Positions 29,056 to 60,566 of a stretch of 64,000 bases of DNA are shown here, one piece after another. How positions within the stretch are numbered: position 1 is the first letter of the stretch; every line of letters begins with the position of its first letter. This stretch comes from Proteiniphilum sp. (GTDB taxonomy: Bacteria; Bacteroidota; Bacteroidia; Bacteroidales; Dysgonomonadaceae), in assembly GCA_018433945.1 (NCBI GenBank), contig JAHDQF010000015.1, positions 34,484 to 98,483 of the forward strand, given 5' to 3'. A program made the translations under genes and the position numbers. The notes beneath the pieces were generated by a model, which saw only the letters and a list, made by a program, of their open reading frames with translations, did no database searches and had not been told where the DNA came from.

Positions 29056-30552
29056 ATGAAACATATCATCTATGCAATAGTATTTGTGGTTATCGGTGCA
29101 TTTTCACTCACGTCGTGTGACGACTTTCTGAACATGCAACCCACGAACTCCGGTAATGCCTCTGGGGCAATAGCTACACCGGCCGATGCAAAAGTAGCCC
29201 TTAATGGAATTATGAGTTCCATGACATCATCCAGTTACTATGGGCGAAACTTTTTTATGTACGGAGATGCCAAAGGTGGTGATTTGACGATCTATTCTGC
29301 AGGTCGGGGTTTGGACGGTCTTTATTCATTCTCCCACACACCAACGTCGGGGAGCTATTCCGGTTTCTGGACAGTAGGTTATTACTGTATCATGCAGATC
29401 AATAACTTACTCGAAAACATCAATAGGCTTCAGGAGGCAGGAACCGCAGGACTCGATTTTTATGAAGGACAGGCGTTGACTTTGCGTGCACTTATCTATT
29501 TCGATCTGGTTCGCCTTTACGGATTACCCTACAACTATAACAAAACCTCTTATGGTGTACCTTTGGCTGTTACTACGCTGAATAGCGATGCACAGTTAAC
29601 GCGTGCCACGGTCGAAGAAAATTATGACCAGATTCTGGAAGATCTGGCAGCCGGTAAAACTTTGTTGGCATCTGATAAATCCGTGCAAAAAGGTTATATT
29701 GGATATTATGCGAATCTGGCCATTGAAGCACGAGTAAAGCTTTATATGGAAAATTACGATGGAGCGCTTACTGCCGCAAAAGAGATTATTAACGACAATA
29801 AATATCAACTTTATACCCCTTCCGCGTGGGTCAACTCCTGGAGTTCTGAGTTTGGTTCGGAATCTATTTTCGAACTTGGAATTTATCCTACAGAATCAGA
29901 CCTTGGAACATCTTCATTGGGTTTCTATCTGATGCGTATAGCCCAGGTAACCGGTGCTTCGGGATATTTCTACGCCAGCGATTACTATCTGAATCGTTTG
30001 GGTGAAGATCCCGAAGATGTTCGCTGGGGAATAATGGATGAGGATGAATATTGGTATAATACGCAAATATCACGTAAAGGGGCTTGTTACAAATATATGG
30101 GCGGATTGATCCGGAGCGACGGGACATTTCCGGGCGATGGGAAGGAAAGTCAAACAGCTGTGAATATTAAAGTTATTCGTCTTTCGGAAATTTACCTTAT
30201 TGCTGCCGAAGCTGCCTTAAATGCAAGCACACCCGACAAGGAGGCTGCCGCAAGTTATCTGAATGAAATCCGTAAACGTGCTCCGAATCTTCCTCCGGCA
30301 ACTGCGGCAACGATTACCGATGAGATGATCCTTGATGAGCGCAGTAAAGAGCTTTTTGCCGAAGGTCAACGCTTTTTCGATATGATTCGTAAGAATAAGA
30401 TCATCGAGTTCAACGATGATTTTCAGGATATTCCGGTGAGTACCCGTAACAAGACGATTGATCGTACGTTCTATAAAATTGTTTTACCGATTTCTCAGGA
30501 TGAAATCAATGTCAACCCTGCCATCGGTGATCAGCAAAACAGCGGATATTAA
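29056..30552 (+). CDS. SusD/RagB-type substrate-binding lipoprotein (pair 1)
   Basis: A 498-residue surface lipoprotein that caps the SusC barrel and binds the substrate. Lipobox SLTSC with Cys21, then DDFLNMQPTNSGN, the usual SusD start. The helical TPR-like scaffold includes ALTLRALIYFDLVRLYG (about 134-150), and the C-terminal RagB part has YLNEIRKRAP and the ERSKELFAEGQRFFDMIRKN motif. It has an unusually strong Shine-Dalgarno sequence for this phylum (GAGGAGGA, 29041-29048). A terminator lies 46 bases after the stop. Confidence 0.94.
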   Translation: MKHIIYAIVFVVIGAFSLTSCDDFLNMQPTNSGNASGAIATPADAKVALNGIMSSMTSSSYYGRNFFMYGDAKGGDLTIYSAGRGLDGLYSFSHTPTSGSYSGFWTVGYYCIMQINNLLENINRLQEAGTAGLDFYEGQALTLRALIYFDLVRLYGLPYNYNKTSYGVPLAVTTLNSDAQLTRATVEENYDQILEDLAAGKTLLASDKSVQKGYIGYYANLAIEARVKLYMENYDGALTAAKEIINDNKYQLYTPSAWVNSWSSEFGSESIFELGIYPTESDLGTSSLGFYLMRIAQVTGASGYFYASDYYLNRLGEDPEDVRWGIMDEDEYWYNTQISRKGACYKYMGGLIRSDGTFPGDGKESQTAVNIKVIRLSEIYLIAAEAALNASTPDKEAAASYLNEIRKRAPNLPPATAATITDEMILDERSKELFAEGQRFFDMIRKNKIIEFNDDFQDIPVSTRNKTIDRTFYKIVLPISQDEINVNPAIGDQQNSGY

Positions 30553-30597
30553 CCTTATCGTGTGAGTTAAGATAAATTCCTGGAAATACAAGGATAG

Positions 30598-30638
30598 CAA
30601 TACCATTCTCCTTTTACCTGGGGATGGTATTGTTTTTT
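30598..30638 (+). terminator. Rho-independent terminator after SusCD pair 1
   Basis: CAATACCAT pairs with ATGGTATTG across a 17-base loop and is followed by six T. It ends the susCD transcript. Confidence 0.75.
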
Positions 30639-30769
30639 AGGATGCAGCTAATTTTTTAATTGCAGCATTCAGTGCTGCCGGCTGTGAGAAAACCATCATG
30701 ACGAGCTTCAAAGAGTAGGGTGAAGAAAAGTTCTTTGAAATATTTGCGTATTTTATTGTTATTTATCAT

Positions 30770-30777
30770 TAACTTCG
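30770..30777 (+). promoter_or_regulatory. -7-like box (TAACTTCG) upstream of the fakA region
   Basis: The same octamer as at 8465-8472. It precedes the transposase-like remnant by 21 bases and could be the promoter from which the lipid operon is now read. Confidence 0.3.
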
Positions 30778-30798
30778 CATCGACTAGAACTGCATGAA

Positions 30799-30950
30799 AT
30801 GTTCAAAAAATCAGACGACCACCAACCTTCAGATGCTTTTTCGTCGCCTCGTATTACTTTAAAGGCGCTAAGAAGAATGATCTGAAGAATGACCTGGCAT
30901 CACTGGTTCAGCACCCAGGTTGTGATGCGCGGGGATGAGTCTGTCTTCAA
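30799..30950 (+). pseudogene. Possible N-terminal transposase remnant (IS1182-like) upstream of fakA
   Basis: One frame reads MFKKSDDHQPSDAFSSPRIT and LKALRRMI, a TGA, then MTWHHWFSTQVVMRGDESVF. The second part resembles the WHNxFxxQVxxRIDExxF block at the start of IS1182-like transposases, and the first part resembles their N-terminus. Nothing further matches. The frame then runs on into the fakA-like gene, so the remnant may supply part of its leader. Tentative. The rest of the 432-base gap after SusCD pair 1 holds only the terminator and the -7-like box listed separately. Confidence 0.35.
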
Positions 30951-30984
30951 CGATAACCAGACACAAACAACAGCTTATAGCAAA

Positions 30985-32790
30985 ATGACATATACAGATA
31001 ATCAAGTACCAGAGATCAAGGGTATCATTGAAAATGTTTACAAATATCTTCACCGGCGAAAAGAATATATCAATGGATTAAATGTCTTTCCTGTGCCTGA
31101 TGGTGATACCGGTCTTAACATGACTTTAACGATACAGGGAGCTTTGGCAAATATGCCCGATTACAATGGTAAAGCAATTTCAAATGGTGAATATTTAAAA
31201 GATTTTGCCGGGCAAATGCTGATGAACAGCCGGGGATGCTCGGGGGTAATCCTGGCGCTGTACTGCCATGGACTTTCAGAGGTTATCGTAAATGGTGACT
31301 TTTCTCCTGCCAACTTATATAAAGCCCTTGAAAAGGGATATGAAAAAGCATACCAGGGAATTGACAATCCTAAGGAAGGAACCATACTCACGTTGATGCA
31401 TGAATTTAAGGACAAATTTGGCGAGCTAATGACAGAAGAAAAAGATTCTGTTGTTATTATCAAAAGATGTATTCCTCATTTAAAGCGGGTGCTGGACAAG
31501 ACACCCGATATGCTGCCGGTACTGAAACAAGCTGGTGTTGTAGATTCCGGTGCTGCCGGTTTTCTCATCATTCTTGAGGGATTTGAAAGAGAGATGAACG
31601 GTAAACAAACTGCTTCGGGTGAAGTCCGTGCCTCACTTATATTAAGTGCCATAAAAAATATCAGGAAACTTATTCAGAGCAGTTCCACAAACATGATAAA
31701 CAATCACCTGGGAACCTTGCATATCAATGGAGGTATTGAAAAGATCAATAATATAAGACTGCGGAATATTATCAGAGATTTTCAGCATCATTACGGAAAT
31801 ATTCTCAATAAAAGTAACAAGAATTTATTAAAAGAAGCATTGCTAAAAGATTTGGAGGAAATGGAATCCTCGTGGGATCCTCACATTAAATACAGGTATT
31901 GCACAGAATGTGTTGTAAAGTCGGATAAAATATCCTCACAGGATCAGATAAAAGAGCTGATCGGAAGCTATGGAGACAGTATGATTGTATTGAATAGCAA
32001 TGATATTTATAAGGTTCATATCCACACAAATAAGCCTGATGCGGTGTTCAATGAGGTTGCAAAGTATGGTGAACTAGTTTTTACCAAGGTTGATGACATG
32101 AAAAAGCAGCACCGCAACTTTATCAGTGATGACACGATTGAATATGAGCGGGAACGCGGCATTTTTTGCATTGTTTCCGGTTTAGGATTTAAGAAAATTC
32201 TGGAGGAGCTTGGGGCTGATGATGTATTCTGTTATGGGAAGAAAAAACCTTCTGTTGAACAGCTTGTAAAAGCAATCAATCAGTTGAAAACCAAAAATAT
32301 TATAGCCGCCCCGGATGATCAGGATATCCTGATGTCCTTAAAATATGCCGCTTCTTTGTGTAAGTCGAATGTGCATATTGTTGAATCAAAAAGTGTTATT
32401 TCTCTGATCAGTATGCTGATGGCTGTATCCAATGATACGAATATCAATAGCATGTCGTTTATTCATAAGCTGAACGATATCAGGTACTGTGGAATATCCA
32501 GGGCTATCAGAGAGACCAGGGCAGAGGATGGTACAGTTGTAAAAAAGGGAGATTTTTTCACCATGTACGACCATAAAATCATCTGTTCGGGAAAGAGTAT
32601 AAAAGAGGTAGTGGTTTAATCCATCGAAAAACTTGTGCAAAATGAGAGTCTGGTAACACTTTATAAAGGCATTCCGGCGAAAAGAGATAACAATCTGCTT
32701 CCTGATTTGAGAAAAGTATTTCCGGAGAAAGAATTTGAAGAATATTACGGCGGTCAATATCAATATTTTTATTATATAACTTTTGAATAA
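30985..32790 (+). pseudogene. fakA: FakA-like fatty acid kinase (DhaL/DegV-type), interrupted by one in-frame TAA
   Basis: ATP-dependent kinase that phosphorylates a fatty acid held by a FakB protein. N-terminal DhaL domain (about 7-205): FPVPDGDTGLNM (about 35-46) binds Mg-ATP, SRGCSGVILA (about 81) and VVDSGAAGFLI follow. The middle domain has RYCTECVVKS and VHIHTNKPDAV. The C-terminal domain (about 375 on) is DegV-like. The reading frame meets TAA at 32617-32619 after KEVVV (545 residues), but the next codons in the same frame give SIEKLVQNESLVTLYKGIPA and end YQYFYYITFE, the usual C-terminus, at TAA 32788-32790. Whole length would be about 601 residues. It is a nonsense allele, a sequence error, or read through. 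The ATG at 30985 is chosen over an earlier in-frame ATG that lies in the transposase-like remnant. Confidence 0.75.
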
Positions 32791-32797
32791 CACCAAA

Positions 32798-33670
32798 ATG
32801 GATAAAAGAATTTTAATCATTACAGCCGATAATCTTGGTCTTTCAAAAGAACAAATAGATTATCAGGACATAGAGATTTTAAAATTTCCTATTATTGTAG
32901 ATGGGAAAGAGTACCGTCAAAGTGAGGAATATAATGCAGCCTGGTTAATTGAAAGATACGTGAAAGATGGGGTCATTGCTCAAACATCTTCCATAGTAAA
33001 AGGAGAACTGGTTGAAATTGTTGAAGCCAATAAAAATAAGTATGACCTGATCATTCATGTTTTGATGAGCAGTATTCTTTCGTCAGCAACTTTCGCTGTG
33101 GCCGAGAATGTCCGGGAAATGTATGAAAAAACGATTCCCATCATCAACATTGATAGCCGGCAATTAGCGACAGGTATTGGAAATGTTCTGATGGGAGTCA
33201 TCGATATCATCAGGGAGCATGAAAATGAAAGCGATATCGTCAGATTATCGCGGGAAGTTGTGAAAAACACATTTAGCTATATGGTTATACCCGACTTGAA
33301 TTATTTTGCAAGAGGCGGTAGAATTGGAAAAGCTAAAGCTCTGATGGGTTCGGTTTTACGAATTATTCCCATTGTGGGTTTGATGGGCGATGACGAAGAG
33401 GGTTTACTTGTTCCCCTTGATAAAGGAAGAACTTATAAACAGGTAAATGATAAACTTATTGATTTGGTTAAAGCGAAAATGGCCGAGAAATCGGTAACCA
33501 ACATCAAGAGATTGCTTATGAACGAATTTGGGGATAATCAGGATGCTTTTCTCGACTTAAAAGAAAAATTAAAGTCTCTTCCCTGTAATGAAATGATGAT
33601 TGGAAGACCTGATTTAACGGCAGCTGTTCATGGCGGGCCGAAAGCATATTTTTTCTCAATCACTGTTTAA
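32798..33670 (+). CDS. fakB: DegV family fatty-acid-binding protein (FakB-like)
   Basis: A 290-residue DegV-fold protein that holds one fatty acid in a buried channel and presents its carboxylate to FakA. Family marks: N-terminal IITADNLGLSKE, QTSSIVKGE (the TSS motif that binds the fatty acid head), the central IINIDSRQLATG, YFARGGRIGKA (RGGRI), and the C-terminal VHGGPKAYFF, equivalent to the usual HxGPG. The ATG at 32798 lies seven bases after the restored fakA stop, so the two are meant to be translated together. The fatty acid preferred cannot be told from sequence. Confidence 0.82.
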   Translation: MDKRILIITADNLGLSKEQIDYQDIEILKFPIIVDGKEYRQSEEYNAAWLIERYVKDGVIAQTSSIVKGELVEIVEANKNKYDLIIHVLMSSILSSATFAVAENVREMYEKTIPIINIDSRQLATGIGNVLMGVIDIIREHENESDIVRLSREVVKNTFSYMVIPDLNYFARGGRIGKAKALMGSVLRIIPIVGLMGDDEEGLLVPLDKGRTYKQVNDKLIDLVKAKMAEKSVTNIKRLLMNEFGDNQDAFLDLKEKLKSLPCNEMMIGRPDLTAAVHGGPKAYFFSITV

Positions 33671-33683
33671 TCATTTTTTGATC

Positions 33684-34298
33684 ATGCATACATATCTGAT
33701 TTATCTGGTATGCTTTCTGGCCGGCTATTTGACCGGATCAATCTTGTTTTCTTATATTTTCACAAAAATTGTCACCGGAAAAGATATTCGTACCCTGGGC
33801 AATAACAATGCCGGTGCTGCCAATACTTATAAGAATGCCGGGCTTGTGTGGGGTATTTTAGCGGGTCTATTAGATGGTTTAAAGGCCTATATTCCAATCC
33901 TTATTGGGTACTACTGGCTCAATCTGTCCGCTGTTTCTCTTGGATTGATAGGAATCGGAGCAATAATCGGGCATTGTCGTCCGGTTTATTTCAGGTTCAA
34001 AGGCGGGCGTGCCGCCGCAACACTGATGGGCATGTATTTATTCTTCATACCTTATGAATTCATTGTTTCTTTTGTTGTGGTAGCGCTGATCGTTTATACA
34101 ATAGTCAAAAAAGACATATTTATCTGGATTCCGGCCGGAATAGTTGGTTTAAGTGCCATCGCGTCTCTGTTTTTTAATCATCCCGTTGAAGTTAAAATGA
34201 TTATCTGGGTAGCAGCACTTATTGTCTTGTTTTTCAACCGGGATTATATACCGAAAGTAATGAGCAAACTTATTCCTGGAAAGGAAATCGAAATTTAA
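33684..34298 (+). CDS. plsY: PlsY-like acyl-phosphate:glycerol-3-phosphate acyltransferase
   Basis: A 204-residue integral membrane enzyme that acylates position 1 of glycerol-3-phosphate from acyl-phosphate, the FakA product. It has about seven transmembrane segments. Conserved loops: GSILFSYIFTK with LGNNNAGAANTYKNAG (canonical SGNIGATN), GHCRPVYFRFKGGRAAAT (canonical GHxxPxFxxFKGGKGVAT), and the C-terminal FNRDYIPK. The loops differ from canonical PlsY in the Asn/Gly run and in GGRAAA for GGKGVA, so it may be a divergent paralogue. The ATG at 33684 is 13 bases after fakB; an in-frame TTG at 33630 lies inside fakB. Confidence 0.8.
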   Translation: MHTYLIYLVCFLAGYLTGSILFSYIFTKIVTGKDIRTLGNNNAGAANTYKNAGLVWGILAGLLDGLKAYIPILIGYYWLNLSAVSLGLIGIGAIIGHCRPVYFRFKGGRAAATLMGMYLFFIPYEFIVSFVVVALIVYTIVKKDIFIWIPAGIVGLSAIASLFFNHPVEVKMIIWVAALIVLFFNRDYIPKVMSKLIPGKEIEI

Positions 34299-34308
34299 AC
34301 TTGAATGT

Positions 34309-36108
34309 ATGATATTTAGAAGGCCATTTATACTCGTAGCGGGTTTCAGTACACTCTTGTTTGCTCTTTCCTCCTGTGTGGATGACAGTTACGATCTGAG
34401 CAAAGATATTTCTCTCGACATGAATGTCGGAGGAAAAGCTTTTTCGATACCGATTGGCAGTACCTCCCCCATTAAACTCAGCGACATGATCGATGAATCA
34501 GGTGTGCTGAAATCGGATGCAAGCGGTCAGTATGTCCTGTCCGAATCGGACGATTTTGATCCGGTCGATGTTGCGATTGACCCGGTGATCCTGGAGGTGG
34601 ATGAAGTGAACCTCGATCCGGTTGAACTGGACTTCCTACCGGTTTTGGATGGAGTTTCACCTGTACCGGGAGATGTTGTGGTGACGCTTCCTTATCCCAT
34701 TTCCGCTACTGTTGATCAGACAGCCAGTTTTCATATCAATGAAGTGGTGCCGGACGAGCTGATCACGATCCGCACGATTGAGCTGAACCGGGAGTCGCCG
34801 GCCACTTACGGGGTATCACTCCGGCTGGGTGGGTTACCGGAAGGTCTGGGTGACGTGACGTTTGAAGACTTCCGGCTTATCCTTCCCGATTTTCTGGTTT
34901 TTTCGGAAGAAGATCACGTGGTTGACGGCGTTCTCACCCTTGGATCCGGATTCAATCCTTACGAGGGATTCAGCAAAGAGCTTACGGTGACCGGGGTTGA
35001 TTTCAGTAAACTGAATAGCGGTGAAGGCCTGAAAATGAAAAAAGTGAATGGCAAAAACCGGTTGATCATTAATGTTCAGGTTAGTTTGAAAGGAACGTTA
35101 ACCATTCAGGAGAGCACGATCGATCCCGACCAGTTGGATCATGTCACACTGATCCCTGAAATGACCACGACTTCCCTTCAGGCTGAACGATTTACAGGAA
35201 TGATTGATCCGCATATCGATCCCATCCGCGAGTCCCTTTCGATTGACCTGGATGAAGACCTGGATTTTCTCAAGGAAGACGGTGTCGTCCTGGATGTCTC
35301 TAATCCGCAGATCCTGCTCACTGTCGGGAATACCATCGGTATTCCGTTGAACCTTCATGTTAAAATGTATGCAAAGAACAGGCATGGTCAAGTTATTGAT
35401 CGATCACAGGTAGAAGAGACGACGCTTCAAATCAAGGCCGCTGAAGTCGATGGAGAGGTCACGGAAACCAGCTTCCTGTTTTCCCGCCAGGGCTCAAGCC
35501 GGCAGGGATATGAAGCCGTGCAGATATCCGACCTGGCAAACCTGGTAAAGGTGGTCCCGGATTCGATCATCCTCGAAATGACCGGAGAAGCCGATCAGAC
35601 CGTGACCCATCATATCGATCTTGGAAAAGCTTTACAGGTCACAGGATCGTATGAAGTGATGGTTCCCTTACAGTTCAATGCTTTCCGGATTCATTACAAG
35701 GATACGATCACCGGATTGACCAAAGATCTTGAAGATATTTCCGACAAACTTAAAAATGGGGAATGGCAGTTGAAGATGACGGCTGAAAATACCGTGCCGG
35801 TTGAACTGACGCTTGATGTAGTTCCGCTCGATGTCGATGGAAATGAGATCTCGGGTGTATCGGCTACCGTTTCGGAAACCATCGCGGCAGGGCACGGACA
35901 TGAAGCTGAGGCAGTAAAGACACCGATTACCATTACCCTGAAGTCGCAGGATGGCAAGCTTCCCCTGCTGGAATCTCTTGCAATAGAGATTACCGCTGAA
36001 AATGAATCCGGGTCGGGTGCAGTTTCCTTCAATGCCAATCAGTCCCTCCGGCTTACCGGTATGAAGCTGATAACTGACGGAGGATTTGATCTGGATCTGA
36101 ATGAATGA
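34309..36108 (+). CDS. Large lipoprotein of unknown function, all-beta repeats
   Basis: A 599-residue lipoprotein (signal peptide with lipobox ALSSC, then VDDSYDLSKDISLDMNVGG). The mature part is rich in beta strands and acidic residues. A proline- and valine-rich stretch (PVDVAIDPVILEVDEVNLDP) precedes several similar strand blocks with DPDQLDHVTLIP- and ESLSIDLDEDL-type turns. It resembles a family of uncharacterised Bacteroidales lipoproteins that begin in the same way. It starts 10 bases after plsY and its stop overlaps an in-frame ATG of the next gene, so all five genes may be one operon. Function unknown. Confidence 0.65.
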   Translation: MIFRRPFILVAGFSTLLFALSSCVDDSYDLSKDISLDMNVGGKAFSIPIGSTSPIKLSDMIDESGVLKSDASGQYVLSESDDFDPVDVAIDPVILEVDEVNLDPVELDFLPVLDGVSPVPGDVVVTLPYPISATVDQTASFHINEVVPDELITIRTIELNRESPATYGVSLRLGGLPEGLGDVTFEDFRLILPDFLVFSEEDHVVDGVLTLGSGFNPYEGFSKELTVTGVDFSKLNSGEGLKMKKVNGKNRLIINVQVSLKGTLTIQESTIDPDQLDHVTLIPEMTTTSLQAERFTGMIDPHIDPIRESLSIDLDEDLDFLKEDGVVLDVSNPQILLTVGNTIGIPLNLHVKMYAKNRHGQVIDRSQVEETTLQIKAAEVDGEVTETSFLFSRQGSSRQGYEAVQISDLANLVKVVPDSIILEMTGEADQTVTHHIDLGKALQVTGSYEVMVPLQFNAFRIHYKDTITGLTKDLEDISDKLKNGEWQLKMTAENTVPVELTLDVVPLDVDGNEISGVSATVSETIAAGHGHEAEAVKTPITITLKSQDGKLPLLESLAIEITAENESGSGAVSFNANQSLRLTGMKLITDGGFDLDLNE

Positions 36109-58577: not shown

Positions 58578-60566
58578 TCAACGGAGGTGACTGATCCGTT
58601 CAATGAGCTCAGCTCCCAGTGCCTTTTTTACTTCAATATGCTTGAGGGTGGTGATGACAAAGGGATTTTTATCGAAGGCGCCGCGTACATATTCAAAGTC
58701 GAGCGCTTTCTCCTGAATATTGCCATCGGCACCGAAGCCGGTCTTAAAGGAGAGTGAGAACTCCTTGCGGGCATCGCTATAGATCATCTCATCGAGGCTC
58801 ACAACGCTCTCCTCCCATTTTTTTACGATGCGGATCACATCGGCTGCGGTGATGGTATCGGGTGTGAGCTGGTAGAAGGAGAGGATCTTGTCCCACGCCC
58901 AGGTCCATTCGTTCACGTAGTAGTTGGCGTGCAGCTCCGCGAACACCTCGTTGATCTCTTGCAGTCTTGTGATTTCACCCGATTCAATACGGTTCAACAG
59001 GTTGTCGATCTCCGTCTTGGGGGCAATCAGCCCGGAGAGATCTACCCACTCGCCCAGACCCACTGTGGAGCCGGGATCGAGCCGCTCCCGTATCTCCTCG
59101 TTGCTGTTGAAGCGTGTTCCTTACAGACGTTTGATGAGGGAGTTACCCAGAAACTTGTGGATGATGATCTCGTAGAGATCCAATCCTCTTTTCAGTGCCC
59201 GATTGGTGATGATACAGCTCTGAAAGGTATAGATCTCAGAGGTCTCACCGGCGGTGGCCTGTAGATTGCGGAGGATCTCTACGCCGGCGAACACCTTCTG
59301 GATGGTGTAGGGACTGAGCAGGTTGAAGTTGATGCAGTCCAGCTTGTCGGGATCCTTGCGTCTGTCCCTTTCGGGCCATTTCTTGGCATCGCGGATGGTG
59401 CCTACGCTGCGCAGATTGACTGCCGGCGCGATGTAGGTGCTGTTGTCTTTCTCCACCAGATAGGAGAAAGGCAGGTTGGATGTGTCGGCATGTTGAATGT
59501 GCCGTCCCAGGATGAGGGAGAACGCTCCAACCTTTGCAGGCCACATCACGTAGGAGTTACTGGTGGTCTTGGCGCCTCTCTCCACGATCCCCTGGTGAAT
59601 GGGTCCCAGCTTGTACATGTGGTTGCTCTGGTTCGACCCCGAACCGGCATTCATGAAGGAGAACATGCCGGCGATCAGGAGTGTTGACTTGTGATGCGTC
59701 ACTGTATAGGGGCCTGCAAAGAGGGCACAGGCTTCCCCGTTCTCTCCCTGGCAGTTGCTGAAGAAGAGCGAATCGGAGGCGGAGTAACCATGATCGATAT
59801 GGCAGGCTTGACCCACGAAGCAGCGGGTGATGAACGATCCACCGTCGATCGTGGTCCCGGAGGAGATGATGAAGTCCTCAGCAATCACATTCCGACCAAT
59901 ATATACCGGGTCATGCTCGTTGCTGTTGATGCTGCCGTTTTTCAGTTTCATCGTGCCGGTGATCTTGGTGTGGGGACCGATGCGCACGTTCTTGATATAT
60001 CCCACATTGACGATCTTGCAGCAGTCGCCTATGCTCCCCCGGTCGGAGGCATGCTTGTCACAATAGAAATCGATAATGGCTTTCATCTTCTCAATCAGCA
60101 CCGGCCGGTGACGGTAGAGCGAGTAGATGTAGGCGAAGTGGGCTGACAACTTGTCGTTGATATGTACTTCACGGCCTCCGGTTTCATTCAGCACGCAGAC
60201 CTCCACACCGTTCCCGAACTTGGTGAAGCCATCCACCATGATCACATCTACATTCTGGATGAAACAGTCGTCACCGATGCTGTAGTTGGCAATATAGTTC
60301 TGAACGTTCTCGATAACCACATCGTCGCCAACCGTGCAGTTGTGGAGCACAGCATGGTTGATGCCTGCATGTTTTTTCAATCCCCCTGCAAGGGCAAACT
60401 CTTTCTCAAAGAGCCCCAACTCAATTTGTCCTGAAAACTGGGTATGTCTGATATGGTCGGGAAGAAATCCCTCCTTTACCCTGACGGCATCCCAATTGGT
60501 GCTGCTGCACCCATTCTGTTGGAGTGCCAGGATCTCTGCTTCGGTCAATGATCGGTATGATGGCAT
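58578..60566 (-). pseudogene. DUF4954 family beta-helix protein, interrupted by one in-frame TAA
   Basis: The frame from 60566 gives 481 residues of a hexapeptide-rich left-handed beta-helix protein (SIGDDCFIQNVDVIMVDGF, IGRNVIAEDFIISSGTTIDG) with an N-terminal helical cap, and reaches TAA at 59121-59123 after FLGNSLIKRL. The next codons in the same frame read GTRFNSNEEIRERLDPGSTV, then GLGEWVDLSGLIAPKTEIDN, the rest of a DUF4954 protein, to 58578. Whole length is about 662 residues, which fits the family. Only the TAA is wrong: no indel and no decay elsewhere. Close homologues probably have Glu at that point (GAA to TAA, inference). The family resembles nucleotide-sugar or acyl transferases but has no proven role. 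It lies nine bases after recA. Confidence 0.8.

Follow-up and report, generated by a model that had tools for sequence, protein, structure and literature searches.

We report that the fakA gene of a Proteiniphilum-like genome is interrupted by a private in-frame TAA codon, which is absent from the relatives examined and is followed by an intact fakB and plsY in a genome with no PlsX match. The stop is most probably a recent single-codon nonsense mutation. We infer that it is present in living cells and that FakA activity has been lost or weakened, whereas a consensus or assembly error is the less likely alternative. The window referred to throughout is the 64,000-nucleotide stretch analysed here, which is part of the 98,483-base contig C53 in a 2.31 Mb genome of 92 contigs that is about 92% complete. 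Its relevant features are listed in Table 1.

Table 1. Features of the fakA region, in window positions
Feature	Position	Strand	Basis
fakA open part (Dak2 kinase domain, FakA-like middle domain, first part of FakA-like C-terminal domain)	30985..32616	+	domain matches; start by comparison with close relatives
Private in-frame TAA	32617..32619	+	sequence and homologue comparison
fakA tail, 56 codons and final TAA; contains the FEEYYGGQ...YYITFE end	32620..32790	+	frame, domain match, alignment
fakB (DegV family), intact; sole DegV match in the genome	32798..33670	+	domain match
plsY (glycerol-3-phosphate acyltransferase family PF02660), intact, third cassette gene	33684..34298	+	domain match

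The fakA frame and its tail

The open reading frame at 30889–32619 ends with KSIKEVVV and the TAA, and the next base is T. The same frame then continues without an indel or second stop from SIEKL to YYITFE (codons at 32620–32787), where it is closed by a TAA at 32788–32790, seven bases before the fakB ATG. The initial annotation had described this arrangement and taken the tail for the usual end of FakA/YloV proteins; reading of the frame bears out the former, and a FakA-like_C match that reaches the profile end bears out the latter. Because close relatives start there, the true start of fakA is probably the ATG at 30985 rather than 30889, which makes the interrupting stop codon 545. Upstream of this conserved start, the frame is open for 32 codons (30889–30984). 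A search of the genome for a second fakA copy found none. The G+C content of the gene, 38% compared with 48% in a genome sample, is in line with horizontal gain without proving it.

The open part alone matches Dak2, FakA-like_M and FakA-like_C in that order, with scores of 100.6, 86.4 and 85.7 bits that all exceed the curated cut-offs. When the stop is read as X, the FakA-like_C score rises by 31 bits to 116.7. The tail alone matches positions 160–216 of the 216 in the Pfam FakA-like_C profile (E 0.0012; 18.7 bits, under the model cut-off of 23). Judged by these profile matches, the homology of the tail to FakA-like_C is not due to chance. For TIGR03599 (cut-off 396.1), the open part scores 370.7 bits, below the threshold, and the version with X scores 397.0, just above it; the FakA_VfrB equivalog NF038248 (cut-off 975) gives 268.7 bits, or 291.7 with X, under its threshold in both cases.

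The tail was aligned with 30 of the 34 homologues that cover the stop site, leaving out L026 and L038 (one stop somewhere in the matched stretch), L042 (a two-piece match) and L047 (a partial match). This alignment has nine invariant columns, and the window sequence conforms to every one of them. Of the 30 homologues, 29 end in glutamate and one in aspartate, and this C-terminal acidic residue is missing from the open part of the window gene and present at the end of its tail. The gene has the domain order of FakA/YloV (TIGR03599; Pfam Dak2, FakA-like_M and FakA-like_C; structures 7w7h and 6w6b), the conserved terminal glutamate and an adjoining fakB, but differs from that family in being interrupted before the last 56 residues and in belonging to a fakA–fakB–plsY cassette of a genus for which no PlsX match was obtained.

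The stop is absent from the homologues examined

We collected 58 fakA loci and left out one, from a phytoplasma (L052); the remaining 57 comprise 34 that span the stop site and 23 that do not. Each of the 34 has a sense codon at the site and a match that extends through the whole tail. This count was made without the order-level matches G039, G041, G053 and G055, and the genus genome G029 is represented in it by record L035. A stop shared with relatives is accordingly rejected, as is the 'TAA inside' of relative G017, which is upstream of the conserved ATG and away from the site. Homologues terminating at this TAA with no tail, a finding that the initial annotation had set against its own claim, number 0 of 34. 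Within the genus, fakA is found in 4 of 39 genomes, the window genome included, and the stop in the window genome only; a fifth match, in G008 (67 residues, E 7.6e-4), was left uncounted.

The locus has the sequence hallmark of a nonsense pseudogene: a stop that is private and disabling, followed by remnants with homology to the intact gene. Like ordinary bacterial nonsense pseudogenes, it has a single private stop in a frame that otherwise remains open, and interrupted ORFs are equally frequent in G017 under the same filter; it differs from them in that it is known from assembled sequence alone and its loss of activity is predicted. A fakA nonsense mutant was not found among the titles and abstract beginnings of the literature searched; a nonsense mutation in fabO is described in the available text of PMC10449490.

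Nonsense mutation or consensus error

To place the stop in its genomic context, 733,715 bases of the window genome were compared with 1,609,676 bases of G017, giving 141 comparable ORFs of at least 100 codons in each direction (77 and 82 in a smaller first pass). A stop was counted where identity was at least 50% over the 20 residues before it and at least 35% over the 20 after it. Interrupted ORFs number 3/141 in the window genome and 3/141 in G017 (∼2% each), and because of this equality the fakA stop can be regarded as background. The three in the window genome are fakA, a DUF4954–DUF6819 gene and one ORF with both a stop and a frameshift; the three in G017 hold four stops, and one further G017 ORF has a frameshift only. 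Stops that failed the filter were not counted (five in 4 ORFs of the window genome, 18 in 10 ORFs of G017); many of these are close to the boundaries of ORFs, where calling is variable, and some of the test ORFs may be spurious. One such stop in the window genome, at codon 343 of 353, is likewise TAA.

The DUF4954–DUF6819 gene (window 58578–60566, minus strand) carries a second private in-frame TAA at 59121–59123, between two Pfam domains that were named on the protein of a relative. At this site, 29 of 30 genus loci have a sense codon, the exception being the window genome (loci were available for 30 of the 36 matches).

An error in the consensus or assembly, in which case the cells would carry a sense codon in fakA, is possible but rather unlikely. 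The stop is known from only one fragmented genome, in 92 contigs, and the cassette is otherwise intact and under constraint, with dN/dS of 0.18 to 0.24 for fakB and plsY against three relatives. The TAA at 59121–59123 is also on contig C53, where 2 of 22 comparable ORFs are interrupted compared with 1 of 119 elsewhere (chance ∼0.06 by simple arithmetic); two of three stops on one contig might reflect a locally poor consensus. However, if random base errors had produced three stops in 141 ORFs, many other errors would be implied, and the window fakA has no excess of nonsynonymous unique codons: its body has 20 nonsynonymous and 31 synonymous, compared with 8/15, 11/12 and 31/55 in the relatives.

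The substitution pattern bears on the age of the proposed nonsense mutation. Against L014, the tail shows seven nonsynonymous differences in 134.7 sites (dN/dS 0.26) and the 150 codons preceding it have four in 354.3 sites (dN/dS 0.05). Against L023, the corresponding values are 10 in 135.0 and 14.5 in 355.2 sites, and between L014 and L023 they are three in 135.0 and 16.5 in 354.5 sites. The L014 comparison hints at relaxed selection on the tail, with numbers too small for dating the stop. Two tail codons specify a residue not seen in the three nearest relatives, all of which have an identical codon there; by residue alone there are three new positions, two of them common to the more distant L016. 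Had the tail been neutral throughout, ∼22 changes would be expected on the window lineage (134.7 sites × 0.327/2, where 0.327 is dS for the body). From these comparisons, and with fakB and plsY still constrained, the stop appears only roughly recent.

Readthrough and a split protein

Of the four readings offered in the initial annotation, a fresh nonsense mutation is the best supported and an assembly error persists as its competitor; neither programmed readthrough nor a gene working in two pieces gained any support. Functional readthrough or suppression, with the TAA read part-time as an amino acid, would fit a tail that is in frame and conserved, and the variability of the residue at the site among relatives might mean that an inserted residue is tolerated. 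We nevertheless regard it as very improbable. A stop conserved at the same place, as programmed readthrough would predict, occurs in 0 of 34 homologues, and the searches for a stimulating structure or suppressor tRNA gave nothing. RNA from 32600–32720 folds no better than shuffled sequences (z 0.87; an equal or better fold in 161 of 200 shuffles), and an Rfam search over 30500–34500 returned one match, to a snoRNA family (E 0.48, below the gathering score), and no readthrough signal. In this genome, about 92% complete, 45 Rfam tRNA matches include 44 genes named by ARAGORN, among which there is no stop-reading anticodon; the remaining match is partial and gave no ARAGORN gene. TAA also terminates 75 of 140 comparable ORFs and is thus an ordinary terminator here. 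Genome-wide reassignment of TAA is rejected on the same count, and because 59,517 aligned codons hold only two in-frame TAA codons that pass the flank filter and three that fail it.

A structure model of the intact FakA from L014 has a mean pLDDT of 70.8 and a pTM of 0.51, with block values between 84 and 93 from residue 491 onward. It matches the S. suis FakA–FakB2 complex 7w7h at E 3.3e-37, although the whole-chain TM-score is only 0.33, and it also matches S. aureus FakA_C 6w6b (E 2.7e-14). The window stop maps inside helix 533–544 of this model and is followed by another helix and three strands, so that the 56-residue tail is part of a single subdomain only and the two pieces are not domains. 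This argues against a FakA that is functional as it stands, either because the end of FakA_C is not needed or because translation from GTG 32635, where a 51-codon ORF begins, yields the tail as a separate product. The tail has no methionine codon and none of the 34 homologues is split at the site, which makes such a protein equally hard to credit.

Predicted effect of the truncation

Under the favored nonsense mutation, the truncated FakA would keep the kinase and middle domains and lose approximately the second half of subdomain 2 of the FakB-binding C-terminal domain, including the terminal glutamate. In the portions of PMC9136124 available, FakA_C of S. aureus binds FakB, FakA without its C-terminal domain retains kinase activity with an apparent KM for FakB1 of 0.99 compared with 0.09 µM, and the last residue helps FakB binding, its change raising KM. 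The available text of PMC11617999 describes competing models, with the importance of the FakA C-terminal domain not fully elucidated. The truncated protein is predicted to show reduced activity or none, owing to misfolding or to poor binding of FakB. Since no PlsX was found in the genome, loss of FakA would leave FakB and PlsY idle.

The fakA–fakB–plsY cassette

PlsX is the other maker of acyl-phosphate. It has no match in any of the 39 genus genomes; the same search was positive for 8 of the 14 control genomes but not for that of Bacteroides. Downstream of fakA, fakB follows in 34/34 loci and plsY is present in 31/31 loci with enough downstream DNA, L024, L029 and L033 being too short to tell. 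Within the genus, plsY occurs in the same four of 39 genomes as fakA, and DegV in five; one of the same-genus genomes, G004, has DegV-family matches (L246 and L250) and no fakA match. The lack of a PlsX match and the joint occurrence of the three genes indicate that FakA is the sole recognized acyl-phosphate maker for PlsY here. According to the available parts of PMC9136124, FakB brings the fatty acid, FakA phosphorylates it and PlsY uses the acyl-phosphate.

Given this role of FakA, the lineage might keep the cassette useful despite the stop, through low-level readthrough or because FakA can do without the end of its FakB-binding domain, but we consider this improbable. The cassette is dispensable in the genus, as shown by the distribution of its genes. 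The genome has seven PF01553 acyltransferase matches, six above the cut-off, and with other acyltransferases present, the cell might survive without the cassette.

The stop itself has little weight beyond annotation, where the break would go unnoticed, with a gene caller listing a FakA that is only a little short. It is of an ordinary kind, either a private and likely recent nonsense codon or a consensus error, and the more interesting lead is the PlsX-free cassette. In a genus with no PlsX match, the cassette would constitute a natural pathway that converts free fatty acids to lysophosphatidic acid without PlsX, of which the window genome may offer a naturally occurring loss-of-function example. 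An in vitro combination of the three corresponding Bacillus enzymes, with PlsX left out, is described in the available text of PMC13400652. No paper about such a cassette in Bacteroidetes was found among titles and abstract beginnings, which is no proof of absence. The cassette (window 30985–34298; loci L014–L047) is found mostly in records with Bacteroidales or Bacteroidota in their titles, and in a few titled Cloacimonadota or Neomarinimicrobiota.
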